Of a DNA stretch of 52,716 bases, positions 5,429 through 52,650 are shown piece by piece. The translations under genes were made by a program, and so were the position numbers. The stretch is taken from contig JAMWCL010000004.1 in the NCBI GenBank assembly GCA_023819035.1, positions 1 through 52,716 on the forward strand, written 5' to 3'. The notes below the pieces were generated by a model. It searched no databases and was not told where the DNA came from. It saw only the letters and a list, made by a program, of their open reading frames with translations. The stretch comes from Candidatus Omnitrophota bacterium. Lineage in GTDB: Bacteria; Omnitrophota; Gorgyraeia; Gygaellales; Profunditerraquicolaceae. The first letter of the stretch is position 1; every line of letters starts with the position of its first letter.

Positions 5429-6388
5429 TTAGGTTATTTTCTGTTTTCCTTTTAAAAGGAATATAAAAATGGGGGCTCCCAGAAAAGCAGTGATAACACC
5501 AATAGGTATCTCCAAAGGTGAGATTAAGGTACGTGCCAGCATATCAGAAAATACTAAAAATGCCGCTCCTAAGATAGCACTTAAAGGAATCAGTCTTTTA
5601 TGATTTGACCCAAAAGCAAATCTTATAATATGGGGAATAATTAGGCCTACAAAGCCAATAATTCCGCTTACACAAACGATACTTGAAGTAATTAAAGAAA
5701 CTAGAATAAATAGGATTTTTTTTACCTTTTCCACATCTATTCCTAAATGGATTGCCTCCTCTTCTCCTATACTTATTGCATTTAAGTCCTTCCAAAATAA
5801 AAATATCAGTGATATAGCTGATACAACTATAACTGTAACTAAAATTAAGGGTTTTAGATCATAATTACTTAAGCTTCCCCATAACCACCAAAATATTCCA
5901 TGCATTACCTGCTTAGGTGAAGTATAGATTAGCAAAATAATTATTCCTGATAAGACTAAAGAGACAATTACCCCTGCCAATATTAACGACTGAATGGGTA
6001 AACGATTATCCTCCCGAGCAATCTGATATACTAAAATTGTAGTAGAAATCGCACCTATAAATGCACTTAAAGGTAGAAATAATCCAGAAAATCCCAGAAC
6101 TATTGCTAAAACTGCCCCTAAACCTGCACCGCTAGATGTACCTAAAAGATACGGTTCGGCTAAAGGATTTTTAAGAATTGCTTGCATTACTACCCCAGAA
6201 ACTGTTAAACCTGCACCAGCAATTATGCCCAATAAGATACGAAGAATTCTTAAATAAAGAATAGGCCTATTTTCCTTTAAAAAAAGTTCTAAAAAATTAA
6301 GTTTTACTGAACCGTGGTTTAGAGCTAAAGTTAAAGATAAAATAAATAACAAAATTAATAGAATAATTCTTATATTAAAATTTTTCAT
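5429..6388 (-). CDS. btuC: FecCD/BtuC-type ABC transporter permease
   Basis: 319 aa hydrophobic; GAGLTVSGVVMQAILKNPLAEPYLLGTSSGAGLGA and GFVGLIIPHIIR motifs. Confidence 0.92.
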   Translation of the reverse strand: MKNFNIRIILLILLFILSLTLALNHGSVKLNFLELFLKENRPILYLRILRILLGIIAGAGLTVSGVVMQAILKNPLAEPYLLGTSSGAGLGAVLAIVLGFSGLFLPLSAFIGAISTTILVYQIAREDNRLPIQSLILAGVIVSLVLSGIIILLIYTSPKQVMHGIFWWLWGSLSNYDLKPLILVTVIVVSAISLIFLFWKDLNAISIGEEEAIHLGIDVEKVKKILFILVSLITSSIVCVSGIIGFVGLIIPHIIRFAFGSNHKRLIPLSAILGAAFLVFSDMLARTLISPLEIPIGVITAFLGAPIFIFLLKGKQKIT

Positions 6389-34670: not shown

Positions 34671-35105
34671 TTAACTGCCGGAGGGAATACAGGTATCATC
34701 CTGTGATAGAGACCGGCCAGAGATAAAAGTAAAACTTTTTGTACCCAAGGTAATACAGTTTAAAGGCCTGGCAGTAAGGATATATCCAGTAGATGTAAAT
34801 TCACAATTATAGGTATAGCCATTTTCTGTTTTTCCACAATAGGCGCGATTAAGATAAGGAAGATCCGCTTCTCCTCCCATTTGCTTTGAGAGTAATTTTT
34901 TCTCATCCTCGGGATATCTACCTTCATGATCCTGAGCATATTTTTCTAAAGCCAAAGAGATGGTTTTTAGTGTCTGTTGAGCCATAGCCTCATTATTTCT
35001 TATGCGTTCCTGTAAAAACTTAGAAATAAAAAAAGCCAAAGTCAAACATACAAAAGCAATGGCTATTACCGCACCTATTAAACTAACCGCCTTATTTTTG
35101 TCCAT
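34671..35105 (-). CDS. Pseudopilin-like protein
   Basis: Short basic leader then hydrophobic helix AVSLIGAVIAIAFVCLTLAFF, type II pseudopilin-like C-terminus. Confidence 0.6.
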   Translation of the reverse strand: MDKNKAVSLIGAVIAIAFVCLTLAFFISKFLQERIRNNEAMAQQTLKTISLALEKYAQDHEGRYPEDEKKLLSKQMGGEADLPYLNRAYCGKTENGYTYNCEFTSTGYILTARPLNCITLGTKSFTFISGRSLSQDDTCIPSGS

Positions 35106-35940
35106 ACTTACCTGCCAAGGTAATTAACTTATTGCGACTTTCATCATCTATTTGGATAAATTTTATGCCAAGAAAATAACGTTGCTCTTTTTCCATACGG
35201 CAATAGATTATTTCACCCTTTGCTTTGATATTCAATGGGGAACTTGAATTTAAATCGTGCTTAGGTTTAAATTCCAAATTAACTTTTACACCCTTGGGGA
35301 TAAATAAAAATATGTTTAAACCTACTGCTGTTCCCCCGTGAGATATATTACAGGTAGTACCTTCAATAGGTGAAGAATAATGTAATTTTATCTCTTTATC
35401 ATCCAACTGTAAATAAACCGGAATTTTTAAAGGTAGGCGTTCCTGTTCTCGCCAATAACCTATCTTACGCAATGGCTGTTGCTTAAAAACAAATTTTTCT
35501 ATCGCAAATGCCTCTTCAGATAAACCATAGTAGGTATCTAAAGCGCTATTTATTGATTCAATATTAGAAATCAAAGGTTCGATATCTAAACCCGTTATTT
35601 TAGTAATCCTGTCTACTAAAGCAGTATCCAAAGGATTTATCATTGCAATATATAATTTTTCTTTAACCTTAAATAAGGGAATAAATAAGTTTTCTCGACA
35701 AAAACCTTCTTCTACTAAATTTAATACTTCAGATGATATACTATAATCGGAGACCCGGACATAAGGGATACCTGTTTCTTGAGCAAAAAAAATCGCAACA
35801 TCCTCTGAACTAAGAAAACCTAATTTTATTAAACTTGCCCAGATAGACTTTCCCGTCCTTTCTGACTCTTGACTAGCAAGATTAAACTGTTGTGTATCAA
35901 TCCAGTTATCTTGAATAAGTTTTAGGGTTATATCTTGCAT
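35092..35940 (-). CDS. MshEN (GspE N-terminal) domain fused to PilZ domain
   Basis: N-terminal GKSIWASLIKLGFLSSEDVAIFFAQETGIPYV...IAMINPLDTALVDRI; C-terminal PilZ-like region with TCNISHGGTAVGL. Confidence 0.75.
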   Translation of the reverse strand: MQDITLKLIQDNWIDTQQFNLASQESERTGKSIWASLIKLGFLSSEDVAIFFAQETGIPYVRVSDYSISSEVLNLVEEGFCRENLFIPLFKVKEKLYIAMINPLDTALVDRITKITGLDIEPLISNIESINSALDTYYGLSEEAFAIEKFVFKQQPLRKIGYWREQERLPLKIPVYLQLDDKEIKLHYSSPIEGTTCNISHGGTAVGLNIFLFIPKGVKVNLEFKPKHDLNSSSPLNIKAKGEIIYCRMEKEQRYFLGIKFIQIDDESRNKLITLAGKYGQK

Positions 35941-35942
35941 AA

Positions 35943-36515
35943 TTACTCCTTAAGTTGATGAGGATAATACTTCTTCATAAATTCTATCAATGTTTGAGAA
36001 ACCTTCTGTTCATCAATAATATATACTCCCGATTTAGCAATATCACTTTGAGAAACCTCTGGATATCTCTTTTTTACTTCTGCTAATAGCTCTGCATGTT
36101 GTCTGGCGATCTGGAGTAATATCCGGTTATCCCTAATCACATCATAGTAATCCAATGCTTGGTTTACAATTAATTTTAACTCCTCATTATCCCATGGCTT
36201 AGGAATGTAGCGATAGACCTGCCCCATATTTATTGCCTGGATTGCTGAATATAGATCGGGATATCCAGTAATAAGCATCCGAACAGTATCAGGATAAGCA
36301 TGTTTTACCTTGATTAAAAACTCAATACCTGAAATATCAGGAAGACGGTAATCTGTAATAACTAAATCTACACCATTTAAACTTTTAATCTTTTCCCAAG
36401 CCTCAGTAGCGGTCTCCGCAGTAATAATCTGACGATCCTCGGTTTTTAGAAGTCTAGTTAAACTATTTAAGATATTACGTTCATCATCAACCAAAAGAAT
36501 TGTATGCTTAGCCAT
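35943..36515 (-). CDS. Response regulator (receiver domain)
   Basis: ILLVDDERNILNSL; DLVITDYRLPDISGIEFL; YIPKPWDNEEL. Confidence 0.92.
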   Translation of the reverse strand: MAKHTILLVDDERNILNSLTRLLKTEDRQIITAETATEAWEKIKSLNGVDLVITDYRLPDISGIEFLIKVKHAYPDTVRMLITGYPDLYSAIQAINMGQVYRYIPKPWDNEELKLIVNQALDYYDVIRDNRILLQIARQHAELLAEVKKRYPEVSQSDIAKSGVYIIDEQKVSQTLIEFMKKYYPHQLKE

Positions 36516-36882
36516 TCTTTTTCTCCTCCTTTATATTTATTGTCTTTACTAGTTGATCAATAAAATCCTGGGCGCTCATGGGGGTAAGCTTAGTGAACAT
36601 AATACCCATGCCTGCAGGATTAATCTTGCCTTCACTATCTTGAGCCGGTTCTTTTCTATTCCAGGCCACTACCCCTTCAGCATGAACAAATTTTTTTTCT
36701 TCTCCCAATTCAAACATTACCTCGATCTTGGTTCCAGGTGGCTCTACATTATTGGTGACCAAAAATAGTCCTCCTGCTGAGATATCCGTTGCATCAATAT
36801 ATTGCCAGAAATTTTGACTACGATATTCTACCGGAAATTTAATATAAGCTCTTTGATATTTTCTTTTTTCTTCCCAACCCAT
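36508..36882 (-). CDS. PilZ-domain protein
   Basis: RKYQRAYIKFPVEYR ... ATDISAGGLFLVT: RxxxR and D/NxSxxG motifs. Confidence 0.9.
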   Translation of the reverse strand: MGWEEKRKYQRAYIKFPVEYRSQNFWQYIDATDISAGGLFLVTNNVEPPGTKIEVMFELGEEKKFVHAEGVVAWNRKEPAQDSEGKINPAGMGIMFTKLTPMSAQDFIDQLVKTINIKEEKKNG

Positions 36883-39799: not shown

Positions 39800-41623
39800 T
39801 TATTTCTCTCTTCGACTTAACCAATTGGCAATGCGTTTTTGATATTCTTCTAACTGCGAGGCATCGACCCTTACCGGAGTAATCGCTGGTTTTTCTTTTG
39901 GTGGAATTTGAGGTTCTGCTGGTGATGCCTCAGCCTTTGCCTCCGTAAGCGGCCTTAATTCTACCTGTTCTTCGCAAACCCTAGCTACTTCCTCAATAGT
40001 AGTAATACCCGCTAAAACTTTACTGACTCCGTCTTCGGCTAAAAGACGCATTCCCTTCTCCTGTGCCTTCTTGCGCAAAGCTACTGTAGAAGCCTGAGAA
40101 ATAATCATTTCTCTTAACTCATCATCTATAATCATTAACTCGAATATCCCGGTTCGACCTTTATATCCAGTACCTCTACATTGTTCGCAACCTCTACCTC
40201 GGTAAAGAATAAGATTTTCCTTTCCTGAAAGCCCCCATCTTTCTAATAGCGCCTTAGATGGTGTATAGGGTTCTTTACAATTATCACAGATTACCCTCAC
40301 CAAACGCTGTGCCATCACCCCAATAAGACAGGCAGAGATAAGATAAGGTTCAACCCCCATATTTACTAAACGTGTCACTGCTGAAGGTGCATCGTTAGTA
40401 TGTAAGGTAGATAAGACTAAGTGTCCGGTAAGTGCGGCTTGAATTGAGATAATTGCGGTCTCTAAATCCCTAATCTCTCCCACCATAATTACATCGGGGT
40501 CCTGGCGTAAGATAGAACGTAAGCCATTAGCAAAGGTAATCCCTGCCTTGGGATTTACCTGTATCTGACGAATAAGACCTAAGCGATACTCTACAGGGTC
40601 TTCAATTGTAACGATATTACGATCAATAGTATTTATTCTCATTAAGGAAGAATACAAGGTGGTAGTTTTACCACTACCTGTTGGACCGGTAGAGAGGATT
40701 ATACCATAGGGTTTAGAGATTATACTTTCAAATCTTTTTAGTTCCTCATAGGTACTAAATCCTAGTTTCTCAATACCAATCATTACGGAAGCGGTATCTA
40801 ACAAACGCATAACCAGATTTTCTCCGTATACGGTAGGGATAGTAGAAACACGAAAATCGATTATACGATCCTCAAATTTAGCCTGAAAGTGTCCATCTTG
40901 AGGGATTCGACTCTCTGCGATATCCATACCTGCTAATACCTTAATACGGGAGATTATTGCCGACTCCCATTCTTTAGGGGGTGAGGGTATCTCATGAAGA
41001 ATACCATCGATTCTAAATCGTATACGCGTTATCTCCTGTTCTGGCTCAATATGGATATCAGAGGCGCGGTCACGAACTGCTTGAGCAATAATTAAATCTA
41101 CTAACTGAATAACTGTACTGCCTTCTCCTGCGGTTCCTTTTGATTCAGATGAGGTCTTAGCCTTTAAATCATCTAAGAAGTCCTTAGTAATCTTGCGTTC
41201 TGAATATAATTTATTCTGAGCTTCCTTTATTTCTTCGGGCGATGATAAATAGATCTCAAGAGGCATATTTGTATGAAGCTGAATGCGATCAACATAATAA
41301 AGATCGGTAGGATCGACCATTGCAATATGTAATTTACCATTCTCAATCATAATGGGAATAGACTGGGTTTGTCTAGCTAAATCCATGGGCATTATCTTAA
41401 TCAATTCTTCATTGGGCTGAAGATTCTCTAAATTTACATAAGAAAACCCTAAATGCTGGGCAATAGTCTCGTATAAAGAGGCACGGGTTAAAAGATGCCT
41501 ATCGATGATTATCTTTTCTAAAGGCCTTTTTAATTTTTTTGTTTCATCAACTGCCTGTGCCAAATCCTCTGGAGAGACAAGCCCCGAACTAAGGAGTAGA
41601 TTTTCTAATTCCTCATCGGTCAT
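39800..41623 (-). CDS. pilB: Type IV pilus assembly ATPase PilB/GspE, with MshEN N-terminal domain
   Basis: GTVIQLVDLIIAQAVRDRASDIHIEP; LSTGPTGSGKTTTLYSSL; QDPDVIMVGEIRDLETA; tetracysteine CDNC...CEQC. Confidence 0.95.
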   Translation of the reverse strand: MTDEELENLLLSSGLVSPEDLAQAVDETKKLKRPLEKIIIDRHLLTRASLYETIAQHLGFSYVNLENLQPNEELIKIMPMDLARQTQSIPIMIENGKLHIAMVDPTDLYYVDRIQLHTNMPLEIYLSSPEEIKEAQNKLYSERKITKDFLDDLKAKTSSESKGTAGEGSTVIQLVDLIIAQAVRDRASDIHIEPEQEITRIRFRIDGILHEIPSPPKEWESAIISRIKVLAGMDIAESRIPQDGHFQAKFEDRIIDFRVSTIPTVYGENLVMRLLDTASVMIGIEKLGFSTYEELKRFESIISKPYGIILSTGPTGSGKTTTLYSSLMRINTIDRNIVTIEDPVEYRLGLIRQIQVNPKAGITFANGLRSILRQDPDVIMVGEIRDLETAIISIQAALTGHLVLSTLHTNDAPSAVTRLVNMGVEPYLISACLIGVMAQRLVRVICDNCKEPYTPSKALLERWGLSGKENLILYRGRGCEQCRGTGYKGRTGIFELMIIDDELREMIISQASTVALRKKAQEKGMRLLAEDGVSKVLAGITTIEEVARVCEEQVELRPLTEAKAEASPAEPQIPPKEKPAITPVRVDASQLEEYQKRIANWLSRREK

Positions 41624-42321
41624 TTGATACCTAACCCCTTTTTTAAATATTCAATCCTTTGTTTTATCTTTTTAATCTCCTCTTTGTTTGAGGCAAGTTT
41701 TAAATACCGTAGATAACAGTTAATTGCCTCTTTTTTATTGATAAGATAACTATCGTAGAGAATCCCTAGATTATAATAAGCATCCTTGTCTTTAGGATTT
41801 AATTTAACTGCCATTTTAAAAGATTCCTCTGCTTGAGCATACTGATTTATTTTAATATACTCTACACCTAAATTATAATAAAGATTACTATTTTGAGGTT
41901 GAAGTTGAATAGCTTTAAGATAAAATGTAATTGCTTCTTCGTATTGATTCTTCTGGTCTAATTCCATAGCAGTTCTGGCTAAGGTAACCGCAGTTTCTCC
42001 TCCTGATTTTAATTCAGCCTCCTGGGATTCTTCCGTAACTGGAGCTTTATCTTCTTTAACTGATCCTACCAGTGTTTGTAGTTCCAATGAAGGTGATTCT
42101 AAAAGGATCTGTGCTTTTTTAAACTCCTCATCTGCTGCCTGGAAATCCTGCGTTTCAATTAATTGCTTTCCTCTTAGATAATGCTCTTTTGCCTTCTGTA
42201 TCTTTTCTTCGGTAGATAATATTTTATCTTGTTCAGCAAACAAATTCATATGAAAAATTTCCATAAACATTACCAAGATAAATAAACCAATAAACTTAAA
42301 ATATCGGTAATTATTTTTCAT
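41620..42321 (-). CDS. TPR-repeat protein
   Basis: Repeats NSNLYYNLGVEYIKINQYAQAEESFKMAVKLNPKDKDAYYNLGILYDS. Confidence 0.85.
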   Translation of the reverse strand: MKNNYRYFKFIGLFILVMFMEIFHMNLFAEQDKILSTEEKIQKAKEHYLRGKQLIETQDFQAADEEFKKAQILLESPSLELQTLVGSVKEDKAPVTEESQEAELKSGGETAVTLARTAMELDQKNQYEEAITFYLKAIQLQPQNSNLYYNLGVEYIKINQYAQAEESFKMAVKLNPKDKDAYYNLGILYDSYLINKKEAINCYLRYLKLASNKEEIKKIKQRIEYLKKGLGIK

Positions 42322-43414
42322 TTTTTACCTCGGTTTTATTTTCAGGATATAACTGCACCTCTATCTTTTTGCTTGATTCTGGCTCAGCTTCTGTTTGTGA
42401 AGAAGTAGAAGATAAAGGTTTACCAAAAAGCTCATTAAATTTCTTAAATCTTTCCTGTAAATCTGTATTTAATTGCCCTATCTGGATATTTAATTGCCCT
42501 ATCTGGATTAATTGTTTCTGTAGATCGTTTAAATAAAGATTAGTTTGATTTAAACGTAAATTCAAATCCTCTTTTTCCAATTGAAGTGCCACATACCTTT
42601 CTCTTAAGTTAATATTTTCTTTTTTGAAATCTTCTAAATCCGATTCTAGCTTTTTACTTTTGTTTTCTGTATCTATTAATTTAGTCTCTAAGCCCAATAT
42701 CTTATCTGCTCTTTTGCCTAACTCTATATCCTTTTTCTCAATAAGCTCCCTTAAATTCTTCTCCTCTGTCTTTAAAGATACATAATCTTGATTTAAACGT
42801 GCTAATTCAACATTAAGTGAATTTATCTGTTCCTGAAGTTTCTGATTTGTCTGTACAAATGAGTTCAGTTTATCCTCAAGTTCTTTTTGTTTTAAAAGTG
42901 CTTCTTGTTTTTGTTTAATTAGAAGCTCTTTCTCTTCTAAACCTGACTGTTTTTCTTTAAGTAGCTTTGAATACTCTTGATTCATCCTCTTTAATTCTAT
43001 ATTTAATCTCTCCAGTTCCTTATTTAAGTTAAAATTATATTCTTTCAATTTTTTAATGAGAATCTTTAATTCTTCATTTTCTTTCTTTATTTTATTCTGC
43101 TTTAACTGGGCGATAAGCTCTTGTTCTTTTGCTATCGATTCTTTCAATCTTTCTTCTAATTGTTGTTTATTTTCATTTGTCAGTTGCAGAATTTCTTTCT
43201 GATAAGAGAGATCTTTCTGCAATAAAATATTTTCTTTCAGGATAGCATCTAAGACACTCCTGAGATGCTTAACCTGGACTTGTAATCTATCTAAAGCTAA
43301 TCTTTGTGATTTTATATTTAAGAAAAGACCTTTTTCTAAGGTTAAAAAAATCAGAAAGACTAAAGCTATAAATGCAAAAAGGATTGTTAAAAATAGATTT
43401 TTTTTATCTTTCAT
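42311..43414 (-). CDS. Membrane-anchored coiled-coil protein
   Basis: N-terminal TM followed by about 290 residues of Leu/Glu/Lys-rich heptads. Confidence 0.75.
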   Translation of the reverse strand: MKDKKNLFLTILFAFIALVFLIFLTLEKGLFLNIKSQRLALDRLQVQVKHLRSVLDAILKENILLQKDLSYQKEILQLTNENKQQLEERLKESIAKEQELIAQLKQNKIKKENEELKILIKKLKEYNFNLNKELERLNIELKRMNQEYSKLLKEKQSGLEEKELLIKQKQEALLKQKELEDKLNSFVQTNQKLQEQINSLNVELARLNQDYVSLKTEEKNLRELIEKKDIELGKRADKILGLETKLIDTENKSKKLESDLEDFKKENINLRERYVALQLEKEDLNLRLNQTNLYLNDLQKQLIQIGQLNIQIGQLNTDLQERFKKFNELFGKPLSSTSSQTEAEPESSKKIEVQLYPENKTEVKNEK

Positions 43415-43441: not shown

Positions 43442-44791
43442 CTATCTAATCGGTCTTAACTCTAATTTAAAAGGTTCAACAGGTAAGGTTACTAATTCTG
43501 ATTCCCAAGCAATAAGCTTATTTTTTGATTCTCTAAGGATACGTGCGGTAACAAAGATAAGCAAATCGGTTTTTTCATTAGGATCCTCTTCAGTTCCCAG
43601 CTCCTTTTGGCTAAATAAAAAATTAAGTAGTGGAATATCACCGAGAATTGGAATTTTGTTTATTGTAGTTTTTATTTTATTCTTTACTAATCCCCCAATC
43701 ACTACGGTTTGACCGTCTTGTATTTGCACCTCAGTTTCTGCTTCACGAGTAGAGGTAATCGGTCTTTGTTTGTTTCCATCCTCATCAGTTATCCAATCAA
43801 CGATTTCACTTACTTCCGGTTTAAGGTTTAATTTTATTTTATTCGCAGGATTAACCTGGGGAGTAACCTCTAAGACAACCCCTACCTTTTCGGGTTCCAT
43901 TTCCCAGCCAGTCATCTCCCACCTACCTGTCTCAGCATTTCGTTCATATCTAGGGATGGGGATCTTCCTTCCCACATGTATCCTTGCCTTATGATTATTA
44001 ATTGTGACAATACGTGGGTTAGCCACAAGTTTAGCATCAGAACGCGACTGCAAAAAGTCAAATATGGCTTTAACCTTGGTAAAATCCAGGGTAGCAAGAT
44101 CAATATTTGTAGTTACTTGCGGATCAAACTTAAAATTACTCTTAAGTGTATATGGGAATTGATAAGCAGATTGTGCTAAGGTGGTCTCAATTGTTGTTGT
44201 CCAGTCAATACCCAATCTTTCTGTATTGGTTAAGGAGGTCTCAATAAACCTTGCCTCAATCAATACCTGGGGAGTAATCTCATCTAAGGTGGGAATCATA
44301 TTTTCGATCTTATTTATTACGGAAAGTGTATCGGTTACTAATAAAGAATTTGAACGGGCATCCGCCTCTATCGAGCCATCAGGAGTTAAAACTTTCTTTA
44401 AACTTTCCTTAAGACTGAGAGCGCTGGCATTATTTAACTTAAAAAGCCGGGTTTGTTTTCCTTCCTGTAACGCCTCCTGAGGAGTGGTAACCTTAATTAC
44501 CTTTCCTTTACGAGTATATACAAAACCATTTACGGTAATAATGGAATCCAATGCCTCTTCCAAAGTTACATTACTTAACTGCACCGTAATTAATCCGGTG
44601 ACCTTCTCTGAGAACACAATATTTAGATTATATTGTTTAGCTAATTGACGAAGCACATCCTTAATATCCACCTCGCGGAATTCCAAAAACTCAATAATTT
44701 GGTATTCGGTCTCCTGAGCATAATCCAAGTACGGTAATAAAATAAATGTAAGCATAAATAGAAAAATCAATCCTTTATTTTTTTTCTTCAT
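43442..44791 (-). CDS. Secretin (PilQ/MshL-like)
   Basis: EVDIKDVLRQLAKQYNLNIVFSEKVTGLITVQLSNVTLEEALDSII; QVLIEARFIET; VVIGGLVKNK...IPILGDIPLLNFLF. Confidence 0.93.
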   Translation of the reverse strand: MKKKNKGLIFLFMLTFILLPYLDYAQETEYQIIEFLEFREVDIKDVLRQLAKQYNLNIVFSEKVTGLITVQLSNVTLEEALDSIITVNGFVYTRKGKVIKVTTPQEALQEGKQTRLFKLNNASALSLKESLKKVLTPDGSIEADARSNSLLVTDTLSVINKIENMIPTLDEITPQVLIEARFIETSLTNTERLGIDWTTTIETTLAQSAYQFPYTLKSNFKFDPQVTTNIDLATLDFTKVKAIFDFLQSRSDAKLVANPRIVTINNHKARIHVGRKIPIPRYERNAETGRWEMTGWEMEPEKVGVVLEVTPQVNPANKIKLNLKPEVSEIVDWITDEDGNKQRPITSTREAETEVQIQDGQTVVIGGLVKNKIKTTINKIPILGDIPLLNFLFSQKELGTEEDPNEKTDLLIFVTARILRESKNKLIAWESELVTLPVEPFKLELRPIR

Positions 44792-44804: not shown

Positions 44805-45266
44805 TTAATCTTTGGGTAATCCTAAATAAAATATTTGACCATCCCGATGTTGTAGCGTAACCTTATCCTTCTCAACAGAAACCACTTCATAATCTCCCAC
44901 CCTATCTCCGGCTTTAACTATCTCATTATTAATAAAGGCGTATCCTCTTTTATCTGCGCCAAAAGAAATACCTTTAAGATGAAGCTCACTTTGAACAAAT
45001 TCACTGCCTTTTTCTAAACTAAAGGGATCCCTGCCCCAGCTAAGGTTTAAACGCTCTTTTTGTAAATTCAATATCTTCTCATCTAAGGGGGTCTCAGTAA
45101 AAACAGGGGTTGCTTTATTACTAGAAAGACTGGAGGTTGTCGATTTCGGAGGGGCAATAGGAGGTTTTCTTTTTTTACTGGTGGTCTTAAGATTATTCAT
45201 TATCACCATAATAAAAACTACACTTAAAATTCCTGTAATAATCAGTTCCTTGATTTTTTTATCCAT
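44805..45266 (-). CDS. Pilus assembly protein, PilP/GspC-like periplasmic anchor
   Basis: TM + proline-rich linker + SWGRDPFSLEKG...LKGISFGADKRGYAFINNEIVKAGDRVGDYEVVSVEKDKVTL. Confidence 0.65.
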   Translation of the reverse strand: MDKKIKELIITGILSVVFIMVIMNNLKTTSKKRKPPIAPPKSTTSSLSSNKATPVFTETPLDEKILNLQKERLNLSWGRDPFSLEKGSEFVQSELHLKGISFGADKRGYAFINNEIVKAGDRVGDYEVVSVEKDKVTLQHRDGQIFYLGLPKD

Positions 45267-45267
45267 T

Positions 45268-45885
45268 CTAAAGTTCCCAAATCATATAGGTACTTAAAAG
45301 CATTGTAGCCAGGATCTCCTTAGCAGATGACTCAGATTTTTTGCCTATCTTTTCTGAACCAGGTGATTGCGGCTCAATGCTCGTTGGTTCTAAAATCAAT
45401 GTCTCGATCTTAAAAGCAAGGGGTGATTCAGCAATAGATTTTATAAATTCACCTACTAAACGATAAGGACAGCTCACGATTACCTCAATATAAGTCTTGG
45501 TAACCCCTAAAGGTAAACTCTCATTTTCATCCTTTATATCTTCGCGGGGTCTTATCGAGATAATCTTTTTGATATTTAGTCTATTTGCGATTTGGCCTAA
45601 TAACTGAACAGCCCGGGGCAATTGTTTTCTACTTATCCCTAATTCTTTAAGCTCTTCACTTTTTTTCTGAATCTCCTCCAGTGCTTTCTGTGGGTCAGGA
45701 AAATTTCGGATAAGCATCTCGGATTCTTTAATCTTATCTTGCTTCGCCTTTAATTCCTGACGCAACCTTCTTTCATATTGTATTGCGGGTCTACCTAAAA
45801 AAATATATAATCCCAATAGAAAAATAAGAAAGCCCAAACAACTAAGGAAGATATTCAACATTCTATTTTGGGGCTCTTTAAACAT
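45268..45885 (-). CDS. pilO: PilO-like pilus assembly protein
   Basis: Single TM, coiled coil, ferredoxin-like C-terminus (TKTYIEVIVSCPYRLVGEFIKSIAESPLAFKIETLIL); follows PilM-PilN. Confidence 0.7.
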   Translation of the reverse strand: MFKEPQNRMLNIFLSCLGFLIFLLGLYIFLGRPAIQYERRLRQELKAKQDKIKESEMLIRNFPDPQKALEEIQKKSEELKELGISRKQLPRAVQLLGQIANRLNIKKIISIRPREDIKDENESLPLGVTKTYIEVIVSCPYRLVGEFIKSIAESPLAFKIETLILEPTSIEPQSPGSEKIGKKSESSAKEILATMLLSTYMIWEL

Positions 45886-45890
45886 CTTAT

Positions 45891-47684
45891 TTAATAATTA
45901 AGTTCGCAGATAATTTCAAAGTTTGCTGCAGGAATTGAAGAGTACATATCCTTTTTGCTTGTAACCAATTGCGCATGTTTAAAAAATGGTGATTCTTCTA
46001 AAGCCATAAGATACTGAGAAAGTGCCAGATCAACAATAGTATAGCGAGCAAAAATCTTTCCTTCTAAATGAATCTGGCGGGGTTCTTTTTTCTGCGGGAT
46101 CGCGATGCGGTTTAAAATAACATCGTTAGGGGTAATATTACTTAATTCTTTTAATATACCCCACCAGATGGGTTGCCTACCTTCTGCTTTTTTTATTAAT
46201 TCCTTCCTCTGTTCCAGTTTTGTTTTGGTAAGAACATATTCCCTCGCTTTAGAGGCAATTGGTTCTAAACGATTTATCTCTGCCTCCAGTTTACTTAACC
46301 AGATTTTATATCTTAAGGCATTGGCATAAGCTAATCCATAAAAAGAAAGGCTAAAAGTAAGTAGTAAAGGAAAAACTATTCTTAAGAGGGTAGTAGCGAA
46401 GATGACTTTCTGCTCCACTCTTTCTTTTAAAGGAAGGAGATTTACCTTTCCTCCATTTCCTAAGCAAAGACCAAAAGATACCGCCATGTGACTGGCAACC
46501 TGCTCCATTACCATCTCTTGTTTAAATACACTGGTGTCCTGCCAACCCTTTAACGCTTGCAGGGTGTTAAGTATCTCTACCTTCTTTAATCCCTCAAGAT
46601 TATATAAGAGAAATTTATCTAGATTTTTTAAACGTGCACTCCCACCGGTAAGATATAACTCTTCAATGGGCTCAGATTTAAATGTCTTAATGTAGAAACT
46701 TATAGTGCGGTTAATCTCTGTAACCAATCTTTCTAAGGTAGGCCTTAATAGGGAGGATAACTGATTACCTAATATTACTCCAAAATCCGTAAGATATTGT
46801 GTCTGAGCGTCATCATCCAAAGGAATGCCACATTGTCGCTTAATCTTTTCTGCATCCTCCGCCAAAATATTTACTGTTCCCAAGGAGGTAGTAATTGTCT
46901 TAGTCAACGCTCTTGTGAGATGCTCGCCTGCTACCGGAATCTCGCGCGAAAACTGTAAGGCATTTCCTTTATAAAAATTAAGTAATGAGCAGGAGGCACC
47001 TATATCCAAGACTACGGTGGTCTTATCGGGAGTAATCTCAAGACAATATGGCAGAAGATTTCCAATTGCATCAGGAATTACATTTATACTGCGCGGTCTT
47101 AAGCCCATCTCTTTTAATAATTGCACCTGCTCATCAAGCACAAAGCGGTCGCAGGCAATACAGGTAACCTGAAGATTCACCCCTCCACCTTCATCATGTA
47201 TCTCATCGGTAACGAAGAAGTCAAAAAAAACATTAGAAAGATCGGTTTGAAAAGGAAGTCGCTTCTTTAACTCAATACTTACCGCTCCCCTAAGATCCTT
47301 CTTACTTAAGGCAGGAATGATTAAGGAAAGAATAAATACGCCTTTGCCTGAGATAGCAGTACGTCCTAAGGTAGTCTTTACCCGTGCATCGGCAATAAAC
47401 TGTTTAACAAATTCCCGAACAAATCTTCTTTTTTGTTGAAAAGTATCTTTAGCAGTAGAAGGGATTGCCCGTGTAATATAATTGGTAATAACATAACCGG
47501 TTCTTATCTTTTGAAGTTGAACAATCTTTATGTGACTGGAGCCTATATCTAAACCAATCACATTTTGAGTGGAGGCAAAGAAACTCTTAATTGAAGAAAG
47601 GATTTTTTCTGGTGAGAGCTTAAGTTTAGAGAGATCGATTAACTGGTTTTTTTTAATCTGAGATTCCTTTAAAGAATCTACCAT
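45891..47684 (-). CDS. pilM: PilM-PilN fusion protein
   Basis: N-terminal actin-like IGLDIGSSHIKIVQLQ...VVLDIGASCSLLNFY...LYLTGGSARLKNLD; then KVNLLPLKERVEQK followed by TM, coiled coil and PilN-like C-terminus. Confidence 0.85.
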   Translation of the reverse strand: MVDSLKESQIKKNQLIDLSKLKLSPEKILSSIKSFFASTQNVIGLDIGSSHIKIVQLQKIRTGYVITNYITRAIPSTAKDTFQQKRRFVREFVKQFIADARVKTTLGRTAISGKGVFILSLIIPALSKKDLRGAVSIELKKRLPFQTDLSNVFFDFFVTDEIHDEGGGVNLQVTCIACDRFVLDEQVQLLKEMGLRPRSINVIPDAIGNLLPYCLEITPDKTTVVLDIGASCSLLNFYKGNALQFSREIPVAGEHLTRALTKTITTSLGTVNILAEDAEKIKRQCGIPLDDDAQTQYLTDFGVILGNQLSSLLRPTLERLVTEINRTISFYIKTFKSEPIEELYLTGGSARLKNLDKFLLYNLEGLKKVEILNTLQALKGWQDTSVFKQEMVMEQVASHMAVSFGLCLGNGGKVNLLPLKERVEQKVIFATTLLRIVFPLLLTFSLSFYGLAYANALRYKIWLSKLEAEINRLEPIASKAREYVLTKTKLEQRKELIKKAEGRQPIWWGILKELSNITPNDVILNRIAIPQKKEPRQIHLEGKIFARYTIVDLALSQYLMALEESPFFKHAQLVTSKKDMYSSIPAANFEIICELNY

Positions 47685-49838: not shown

Positions 49839-50339
49839 TTATAGATTTCGCGGATATACCTGTGTCCGAAGTATCTTTGTTTGTCCACCCGAAGTTACTT
49901 GAATCTCTATAACAATCCGAGAGATATCGGAAAAATTTGAAACACTACAATTACATTCAGGTAAACAACTTGGTTGATTATCAAAGTTATAATAACAAAA
50001 TTTTAAACTCGTAACATTGCCTGCTAAAATATAAGAATTGCGCATCAGATTATTACCGGAGAGATAGAAGTTTATACTATTCTCATTTATATCGGTAAAT
50101 TGAAATTGATTTACCGAAGCAACCGATATAGAGAGGCTATCTCTTACCTCTCTTATCTCGCGTTGCATCCGACTCAGGGCAAGCCTTACCTCTGAGACTA
50201 CCTCGTTACGAAAGCTTAAGAAACGCCACAGATCAATAATTTCTTTTATATACATGCTAGACACCCCTACTAAAACCGCTACAATTATAATTACCATTAT
50301 TAATTCAATTAAAGTTATGCCCTTTTTCTTATGTATCAT
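49839..50339 (-). CDS. Prepilin-type protein (PilW-like)
   Basis: KKKGITLIELIMVIIIVAVLVGVSSMYIKE: prepilin cleavage/methylation motif. Confidence 0.85.
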   Translation of the reverse strand: MIHKKKGITLIELIMVIIIVAVLVGVSSMYIKEIIDLWRFLSFRNEVVSEVRLALSRMQREIREVRDSLSISVASVNQFQFTDINENSINFYLSGNNLMRNSYILAGNVTSLKFCYYNFDNQPSCLPECNCSVSNFSDISRIVIEIQVTSGGQTKILRTQVYPRNL

Positions 50340-50362: not shown

Positions 50363-50827
50363 TTAATAAAATGTCACAATTGTTACCAAACTAACCTCAC
50401 CTGCTAATTGTTCACTGCGTAAAACCGAGACAGTGATACGTTTAAAATTCGTTGTACTTGCTGAACTCTCCCAGATATTTGTATTTAAGGTAACATAATC
50501 TACGATACAGCGACGTGTATATCCAGGCGCAGGACTATCCAAATAGCCATTAAAATCATCTACATCATCATAATCTAACCTTTGGTTTTCTCCACTATTA
50601 GGACCTAAATTAGGATTGCTTCTATCCTGGGGATCAACAAATTCTTTTGATTTTATCTCCTCCATTAATTCTTCGGCATAAAAAGTTGCCTCAGCAATTG
50701 CTTCAGAGCGACTGGACCTTAAAGCCACCTCTGCCCACATCCTTAAAAGCACCGGGATAGCCACGCCTAAGACAACAATGATTGTAATTAATTCAATTAA
50801 AGTTAAAGCCTTTCTTTTTATTACCAA
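50363..50827 (-). CDS. Prepilin-type protein (PilV-like)
   Basis: KRKALTLIELITIIVVLGVAIPVLLRMWAEVALRSSRSEAIAEATFYAEELMEEIKSKEF. Confidence 0.82.
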   Translation of the reverse strand: MVIKRKALTLIELITIIVVLGVAIPVLLRMWAEVALRSSRSEAIAEATFYAEELMEEIKSKEFVDPQDRSNPNLGPNSGENQRLDYDDVDDFNGYLDSPAPGYTRRCIVDYVTLNTNIWESSASTTNFKRITVSVLRSEQLAGEVSLVTIVTFY

Positions 50828-51321
50828 TTTATCCTTCCTGTATTAGGACTAATATAAATTGTAATATTATTTCCTCCGTAAGATAGATTAATCCAGCCAC
50901 TATTAGTTAAAGGATTGCCATTGGCATCCTGCGGTTCTCCCTTCCAATTAAAGCGCAAAGAGCTTGTTCCGCCAAAATTAACCCCTGTAATATCGATACC
51001 CCTGTATTGTGGGTCGGTAGTAAAATTAGTTTGCATATTCGCTCTAGTGAAAGGGTCAATTGCATAAGCATTATCCAAGACCCGGCGTGCCTCATAGGTA
51101 TCGGTAATAGCATTAAAGTTTAGGTAATAATCTTGGTGTTGACTAATCGCTAATTGTTGAATATATCTAATATCAGAAACAGTTTTTTTAACCGCTCCGC
51201 TTAATTTTATCATAGAGAAACTGGCAAAACGAGGGATGCTTAATCCCGCAAGGATACCGATAATTAGAATTATCATCACCACTTCAATAAAATTATATCC
51301 CTTCCTTAAAACCTTATTCAT
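50821..51321 (-). CDS. Prepilin-type protein (FimT/GspH-like)
   Basis: RKGYNFIEVVMIILIIGILAGLSIPRFASFSMIKLSGAVKKTVSDIRYIQQLAIS. Confidence 0.85.
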   Translation of the reverse strand: MNKVLRKGYNFIEVVMIILIIGILAGLSIPRFASFSMIKLSGAVKKTVSDIRYIQQLAISQHQDYYLNFNAITDTYEARRVLDNAYAIDPFTRANMQTNFTTDPQYRGIDITGVNFGGTSSLRFNWKGEPQDANGNPLTNSGWINLSYGGNNITIYISPNTGRINW

Positions 51322-51438
51322 CTCTGTTCATCTTTTATATCCTCTAATATAAATTATAATATATCTAAAATGAAAAAGCCAGTAAAATATAAAAAAATAC
51401 TTTTCAATCTACCTGATTTATGGTATATTTTATTTTTG

Positions 51439-52530
51439 ATGGCTGAAAAGGTTAAGAATATTGTGGAGGATATTGTAAGAGAGTATCTTAACGTTTCTCT
51501 TTCTTTGCGATATGACATCTGTACCTGCCCTCTCTGCAGAAACGCAATGCTTGCAGAAGCACTCTCTAATATCCCACCTAAATATGTTTCTACTGAAGAA
51601 GCGGGTATGCGAGCAGTAATTGAGCAGACCCGCCTTGAATATCAAGCAAGAATTGCCAAAGAGGTTTTAAATACAATAGACAGGATCAGTAAAAATCCTC
51701 CACATGAATTAAATGAAGATAAAAAACAGGCATTTAGATTACTCCTTAATAAGATCTATGAAGATAGAGGATTAGATTTTCGGCATTATCGAGAGGGGAT
51801 TTTAAAAAGAAGATTCGCCTTAAGGATGCATGCAAATAAGGTGAAATCCTATGCCGAATATCTTTTACTTCTCAACAAAACTCCTGAGGAATATGAAAAA
51901 CTCTTTGAGGCCCTCTGCATTAATGTCTCAGAATTCTTCCGTGACCCTCCAGTCTGGGAGGTAATAGAAAAAATCCTAAAAGAACTTATTAAAGAAAGGG
52001 TCGAAACCAATCAATCCCTTAAGATCTGGTCAGCAGGCTGTGCTAATGGAGAGGAACCTTATTCAATAGCCATTCTTATAAAAAAAATCTTAAAAGATTA
52101 TCCTCCGGATAAATTTAAAGGTGTGGAGATCTTGGCTACCGATATTGATAAACAGGTATTAAGGAATGGGGAGAAGGCAGAATATAGCTTAGCGAGTTTG
52201 AAAAATGTCTCTCCGAGAGTTTTAAAAGAATATTTTACTTACGAAGATGGACGCTACTGCATAATTCCTGAGATAAGAAAGATGGTCTTATTTAAACATA
52301 TGGACCTAATCCTGCAAGAGCCCCAGATTAAAGATTTAGATATAATCCTTTGTCGAAATGTCTTTATTTATTTTAACCGCAGTCTCCAAGACATCTTGTT
52401 TACCAAATTCTACAAATTTTTAAAGTCAGGCGGTTATCTGGTGTTAGGCAAGGTGGAAACTATATGGGATGAGGTAAAGGATATTTTCGAAAAAGTGGAC
52501 TTAGAAAACCGGATATTCCGCAAGAAATAA
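51439..52530 (+). CDS. ComFB-like domain fused to CheR-type protein methyltransferase
   Basis: ORF track opens at 51370, but domain homology starts at in-frame ATG 51439. N-term MAEKVKNIVEDIVREYLNVSLSLRYDICTCPLCRNAMLAEALSNIPPKYVSTEEAG (ComFB-like); C-term ISSEFFRDPP-type NVSEFFRDPPVWEVIEKIL, IWSAGCANGEEPYSIAI, DIILCRNVFIYF (CheR). Confidence 0.85.
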   Translation: MAEKVKNIVEDIVREYLNVSLSLRYDICTCPLCRNAMLAEALSNIPPKYVSTEEAGMRAVIEQTRLEYQARIAKEVLNTIDRISKNPPHELNEDKKQAFRLLLNKIYEDRGLDFRHYREGILKRRFALRMHANKVKSYAEYLLLLNKTPEEYEKLFEALCINVSEFFRDPPVWEVIEKILKELIKERVETNQSLKIWSAGCANGEEPYSIAILIKKILKDYPPDKFKGVEILATDIDKQVLRNGEKAEYSLASLKNVSPRVLKEYFTYEDGRYCIIPEIRKMVLFKHMDLILQEPQIKDLDIILCRNVFIYFNRSLQDILFTKFYKFLKSGGYLVLGKVETIWDEVKDIFEKVDLENRIFRKK

Positions 52531-52623: not shown

Positions 52624-52650
52624 ACCCTCTCGTCGTGAGAGGATTATTTT
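52624..52650 (+). terminator. Rho-independent terminator after ComFB-CheR
   Basis: CCTCTCgtcgtGAGAGGATTATTTTTTG. Confidence 0.75.

Follow-up and report, generated by a model that had tools for sequence, protein, structure and literature searches.

The gene at 51439..52530 (+ strand) of the 52,716-nucleotide stretch analyzed here (the window, which is contig C12 of a 1.25-Mb Omnitrophota genome that is 92.6% complete) encodes a 363-aa protein in which a ComFB domain is fused to a CheR methyltransferase. PilK of the Pil-Chp system is a CheR-type enzyme of a chemosensory pathway controlling type IV pili, and it has no ComFB domain. Our best reading, to which we give about an even chance, is that the fusion would methylate MCPs as a PilK-like enzyme, with a cyclic dinucleotide controlling it in cis and pili as the likely output. 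The recurrent pairing of ComFB with CheR suggests that a second messenger directly tunes receptor adaptation of a pathway that probably steers pili.

Domain composition of the fusion protein

The first-pass annotation of this DNA had placed an open reading frame at 51370-52530 (+). That frame is present in the window, but translation more probably starts from the ATG at 51439, since the N-termini of relatives begin there; a start at 51370 adds 23 residues without counterpart in the relatives. The N-terminal domain (residues 6-87; 51454..51699, +) matched ComFB in Pfam (PF10719, E = 2.2e-13, 50.5 bits against a cut-off of 25), so the ComFB-like domain claimed from the letters alone was borne out. 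It is predicted to be a four-helix, Zn-binding domain of the c-di-NMP-receptor type, on the basis of Pfam, PDB profile matches and a fold match. When the fusion sequence was the query against the PDB, B. subtilis ComFB (4wai) was a weak match at the N-terminus; with a profile of ComFB domains, the matches were 4wai (4e-11) and CdgR, a receptor of c-di-GMP (8hja; 3e-5).

The AlphaFold model of the whole protein had a pLDDT of 82.6. Since a structure search with this model was dominated by CheR, the first 94 residues, with the ComFB domain, were modelled separately (pLDDT 72). The high-probability matches of this second model in the PDB were solely 4wai (ranks 1-3) and CdgR with c-di-GMP, 8hja (ranks 4-5), so the comparison proposed earlier with ComFB/CdgR structures came out as expected, with weak E-values of 0.1-1.3 (for the top 4wai match, probability 1.00, TM about 0.6 and E 0.1). 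Because these fold-match E-values are weak, the assignment to ComFB is carried by the sequence profile, with which the fold agrees. Pfam missed the ComFB domain in two fusions, G014b and G221.

The cysteine cluster that the first-pass annotation had described as CxCxxC corresponds to C28-x-C30-xx-C33 (51520..51537, +), and all three cysteines were present in 26/26 fusion copies. H89 (51703..51705, +) is a candidate fourth Zn ligand. This place is Cys or His in the ComFB family, and a histidine was found there or a few residues off in every one of the 26 copies, with H89 itself nearly invariant. C28, C30, C33 and H89 match the arrangement of Zn ligands in B. subtilis ComFB (C25, C27, C30 and C88; PMC4381287), in which three closely spaced cysteines are joined by a distant residue that may be Cys or His. 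CdgR has no such cysteine cluster.

The remainder of the protein, which had been called a complete CheR-type SAM methyltransferase, proved to be just that. Pfam identified the all-alpha CheR_N domain (residues 98-147; 51730..51879, +; 1e-11) and the CheR SAM-binding domain (residues 162-356; 51922..52506, +; 1.4e-51), and the SAM-site motifs NVSEFFRD, GCANGEEPYS, ATDID and CRNVFIYF are intact. The nearest solved structures by sequence were CheR of B. subtilis, Pseudomonas and Salmonella, and Foldseek matched the CheR part to 5ftw, 5xly (CheR1 complexed with MapZ) and 1af7. In the AlphaFold model the last ComFB helix ends at about residue 85 and the first CheR helix begins at about residue 93, with a short linker at 51706..51714 (+); the two domains are therefore predicted to be nearly contiguous. 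The beta-subdomain loop insertion of Salmonella CheR was absent from the fusion when the two were compared, and the host MCP has no C-terminal pentapeptide (it ends ...VSKFKL). The two absences are consistent with each other, and as judged from sequence the fusion would fall outside the pentapeptide-dependent CheR subclass.

Distribution and origin of the fusion

Full-length fusions were found as 26 copies in 23 genomes or records. Assembly artefact was considered as a source of the fusion and rejected, because independent genomes carry full-length copies at 40-55% identity. Among 58 related genomes, host included, 12 carried the fusion, and the 11 non-host copies were full length and 49-55% identical to it. 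The fusion was present in 12 of the 16 genomes with che-cluster ComFB/CheR genes compared to 0 of the 42 without them (Fisher p 2e-9); counted the other way, che-cluster comFB/cheR genes were present in 12/12 fusion genomes and in 4/46 without the fusion.

In a phylum-wide sample, 15/237 Omnitrophota genomes had the fusion and 22/237 had any ComFB, so the architecture is rare rather than common, as the earlier idea required. ComFB was fused to CheR or adjoined it at 25 of 30 loci across the Omnitrophota (2 from the host and 28 from the 237-genome sample). A single scan of genome contigs returned near relatives only. Spread by plasmids was considered. The best match (Azospirillum) reached back to query residue 28, and this is a spurious extension and not a ComFB domain, because the match starts at 6001, upstream of the annotated CheR gene at 6151; a stand-alone ComFB query had no match among plasmids. 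The best matches of the fusion among phages were confined to the CheR part, and a search of viral contigs gave no match.

In the CheR tree, the fusion CheRs and one lone CheR nested among them (from G003) formed one clade (100/99), and the CheRs of che clusters lay on the opposite side of a branch (86/73). The short ComFB tree agreed, weakly (76/77). The simplest reading of these trees is one old event of duplication and fusion. Both domains are mostly under purifying selection: synonymous changes dominate in close pairs, and ComFB dN/dS was 0.06-0.23 in 6 of 7 such pairs, with 0.61 for the pair L033-L034. Two fusions stand in tandem at each of L041:1764-3874 and L042:8450-10683, where the second copy keeps the cysteines and has lost LPPxY.

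Chemosensory genes of the host

The first-pass annotation had noted no other chemotaxis gene in the window. This holds for the window but not for the genome, which has a complete che cluster on contig C52. A genome-wide search found exactly 2 CheR and 2 ComFB in the host, and they are paired: one pair is the fusion on C12, and in the other comFB lies directly 5' of cheR in the C52 cluster. The order there is CheY-CheC-CheA-(FtsA/PilM-like)-ComFB-CheR-CheY-CheD-CheB-CheC. Because the CheR of this cluster is also preceded by a free ComFB gene, we regard ComFB-CheR coupling as a feature of the whole system.

The FtsA/PilM-like gene just before ComFB in this che cluster (L048:11906-14065) encodes a protein of about 715 aa with an FtsA/PilM/MreB-like actin fold, which matched TIGR01174 (ftsA) at 4e-30 and PilM at 8e-9. 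It is kept in at least 9 genomes of the order, whereas neither the G215 nor the G214 cluster showed it. Such a protein is unusual in a chemotaxis operon and might connect Che output to the pilus.

The host has a single MCP, on contig C20 (L069:8184-9875, beside CheW), and so has both an MCP and, on C52, a CheB partner. The MCP contains a CxxCH motif and matches the c-type heme sensor domain Mcp40H-20; nearby are genes for CheW and Tat and hydrogenase-like genes. Its pathway is perhaps one of redox or energy taxis. Four GGDEF matches and one DAC match were found in the host genome, and from these the host should be able to make c-di-NMP ligands. FliM was found in none of the 12 fusion genomes searched, host included, and two host proteins were above the cut-off for the PilT family. 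The pathway therefore lacks a flagellar switch as its target, whereas a retractable-pilus ATPase is present.

Gene neighborhood of the fusion

The fusion had been described as divergent from a pilus operon, and an operon with prepilins, PilMN, secretin and ATPase was indeed found in the window, on the minus strand. Three prepilin-like genes (49839-50339, 50363-50827 and 50821-51321) lie nearest the fusion. Further along are a PilM-PilN fused protein (45891-47684), a PilO-like protein (45268-45885), a secretin (43442-44791) and, between the last two, another gene (44805-45266). A PilB/GspE-type ATPase with an MshEN domain (39800..41623), in which the canonical MshEN motif was not found, a PilZ protein with RxxxR and DxSxxG motifs (36508..36882) and an MshEN-PilZ protein (35092..35940) also belong to the operon, as do T2SSE and T2SSF proteins, a histidine kinase and a response regulator. 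We use the safe term type IV pilus-type operon because some of its proteins are also hit by models for type II secretion. Between the secretin and the ATPase are a TPR protein (41620-42321) and a 367-aa protein (42311-43414).

Prepilin genes were divergent from the fusion, as in the window, in 7 relatives, and prepilins were beside it in 8 of the 10 fusion genomes of the host's family and order whose contigs reach the neighboring genes. The link between fusion and pilus genes is thus common but not universal. The G028 fusion lies next to a che cluster with ComFB and no CheR of its own. In G215, one stretch reads pilins-PilM-fusion-CheY-CheC-CheA-ComFB-CheR-CheD-CheB-CheC-MCP. The gene order in a second family is CheC-ComFB-fusion-PilZ-prepilins, and the fusions of G004, G208, G221, G270 and G267 have neither pilus nor che genes adjacent.

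REC-GGDEF and PilZ genes lie directly downstream of the fusion in 6 relatives. For the host genome, an operon running from the fusion into such genes was considered and found unsupported: the gene is followed by a hairpin and then by another promoter, and the contig ends there. The terminator-like hairpin (52626..52642, +) is weak, as 1 was found compared to 0.7 expected. Contig C36 carries the nearest REC-GGDEF homologue. A perfect sigma-70 consensus promoter, TTGACA-17-TATAAT, follows the hairpin at the very end of the contig (52688-52716), and the break of C12 may lie at a repeated, strongly expressed gene.

Proposed function and alternatives

The fusion would be a cytoplasmic chemosensory adaptation enzyme whose CheR part methylates MCP glutamates with SAM and whose ComFB domain binds a cyclic dinucleotide and dimerises. 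The state of the ligand would act through the very short linker on the CheR_N helices with which the enzyme docks on the MCP, and this putative allosteric coupling could be either activating or inhibitory. Pseudomonas offers a precedent, in that MapZ loaded with c-di-GMP inhibits CheR1, so that MCP methylation falls (PMC6370697). By setting receptor methylation, the second messenger would set CheA activity and, in turn, CheY output, and in a host without flagella the output would most likely be the type IV pilus. We take the pathway output to be probably pili because the host has one MCP, PilT, GGDEF and DAC enzymes but no FliM. Of the possible ligands, c-di-GMP is favored over c-di-AMP, because of the PilZ and GGDEF gene context. 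The fusion itself would be paralogous to the comFB-cheR pair of the main che cluster, with the two parts joined in one gene. Second-messenger control of MCP methylation, first raised as an idea from the sequence alone, is supported by homology and by gene context across the phylum, from which we infer the ligand and the substrate.

The main rival is that ComFB is a structural Zn module for dimerisation or docking, free of nucleotide, that anchors CheR to the receptor array or the pilus base; the FtsA/PilM-like protein of the che cluster would be a possible dock. In B. subtilis, ComFB forms an obligate Zn dimer and has no competence phenotype (PMC4381287), and CheR-TPR fusions show that CheR can carry protein-protein modules (PMC3447774). 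The Zn ligands are also the most constant feature of the fusions, while the LNxLPPxY stretch is variable or lost in some copies; this rival stays in play because G002 and G014 each lack the LPPxY motif in the second copy of the tandem. However, the cyanobacterial family members tested bind both c-di-AMP and c-di-GMP and control piliation (PMC12313861), and the fusion or ComFB loci recurrently have GGDEF or PilZ genes as neighbors. CdgR works through titration with c-di-GMP (PMC13075795). We consider a purely structural role unlikely, though well ahead of the other alternatives.

It is improbable that the substrate of the fusion is a pilus-related protein and not an MCP. Such a substrate would suit the prepilins adjoining it in 8 of 10 genomes, the single MCP of the host and the presence of the fusion in G002, where no MCP was detected; however, G002 does carry a che cluster, on a broken contig, the CheR fold and motifs are complete, the fusion is the sole CheR at the ComFB-type che cluster of G028, and it strictly co-occurs with che genes. 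Slightly less probable still is a zinc or redox sensor gating CheR, for which the CxCxxC..H site and the heme-like match of the sole host MCP, whose pathway may handle redox signals, would speak, but ComFB Zn is apparently tightly bound and may be structural (PMC4381287).

There is also a broader reading, which we hold tentatively, at a little below even odds. The Omnitrophota would have a flagellum-free chemosensory system with ComFB as a core component, in which, since the che-cluster CheR comes with ComFB as neighbor or fusion, a cyclic dinucleotide would set receptor adaptation; together with the FtsA/PilM-like protein, this would be an undescribed class of pilus-steering system.

Relation to known systems

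A close functional likeness is to MapZ-CheR1 of P. aeruginosa (PMC6370697; PDB 5xly), where a c-di-GMP receptor controls CheR and hence MCP methylation. MapZ, however, is a separate PilZ-domain adaptor that acts in trans in a flagellar pathway, whereas ComFB is in cis or encoded by a neighboring gene in a host without FliM. The fusion would work like MapZ in this comparison but is not MapZ, as its receptor domain is ComFB, in cis. ComFB and CdgR (4wai; Synechocystis CdgR, 8hja; PMC12313861, PMC4381287) share with it the Pfam family, the predicted fold and links to type IV pili, and the Zn-ligand pattern is of the Bacillus ComFB type; those proteins are stand-alone, with no CheR fusion or pairing reported in those papers, while ComFB of this host is fused or paired. 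CheR-TPR fusions such as FrzF (PMC3447774) also have an extra domain modulating methylation and are often non-flagellar and near GGDEF regulators, but that domain is a protein-binding TPR, whereas that of the fusion is of a nucleotide-receptor family. The likeness of the host system to Pil-Chp rests on two features, the lack of a flagellar target (FliM) and the presence of PilT.

Control of CheR itself by a second messenger is known (MapZ); what would be new here is such control by a different receptor, fused to the enzyme. Cross-talk of cyclic dinucleotides with chemotaxis is known through trans-acting adaptors such as MapZ, and a conserved fusion would spell this coupling out within a single protein, which can be purified for direct tests. 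For ComFB, a family with no clear mode of action so far, it would supply a first definite effector, and it opens a way into the study of sensing in an uncultured, largely nano-sized phylum that has pili but no flagella. A search of the literature other than preprints found no paper on ComFB together with CheR in this sense, and none emerged when Omnitrophota were searched for jointly with chemotaxis and type IV pili; chemotaxis is not mentioned in the main Omnitrophota genome survey. ComFB is reportedly treated in a 2024 preprint as a widespread c-di-NMP receptor family, and that preprint may list domain architectures.

Of the 5 ComFB loci that lie away from CheR, 3 adjoin a REC-GGDEF gene. 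In one family (f17; L150-L153, in G087, G229, G211 and G253), a stand-alone ComFB gene with no adjacent cheR lies beside two large ATPase/helicase-like genes, and a REC-GGDEF protein is encoded alongside in 3 of the 4.
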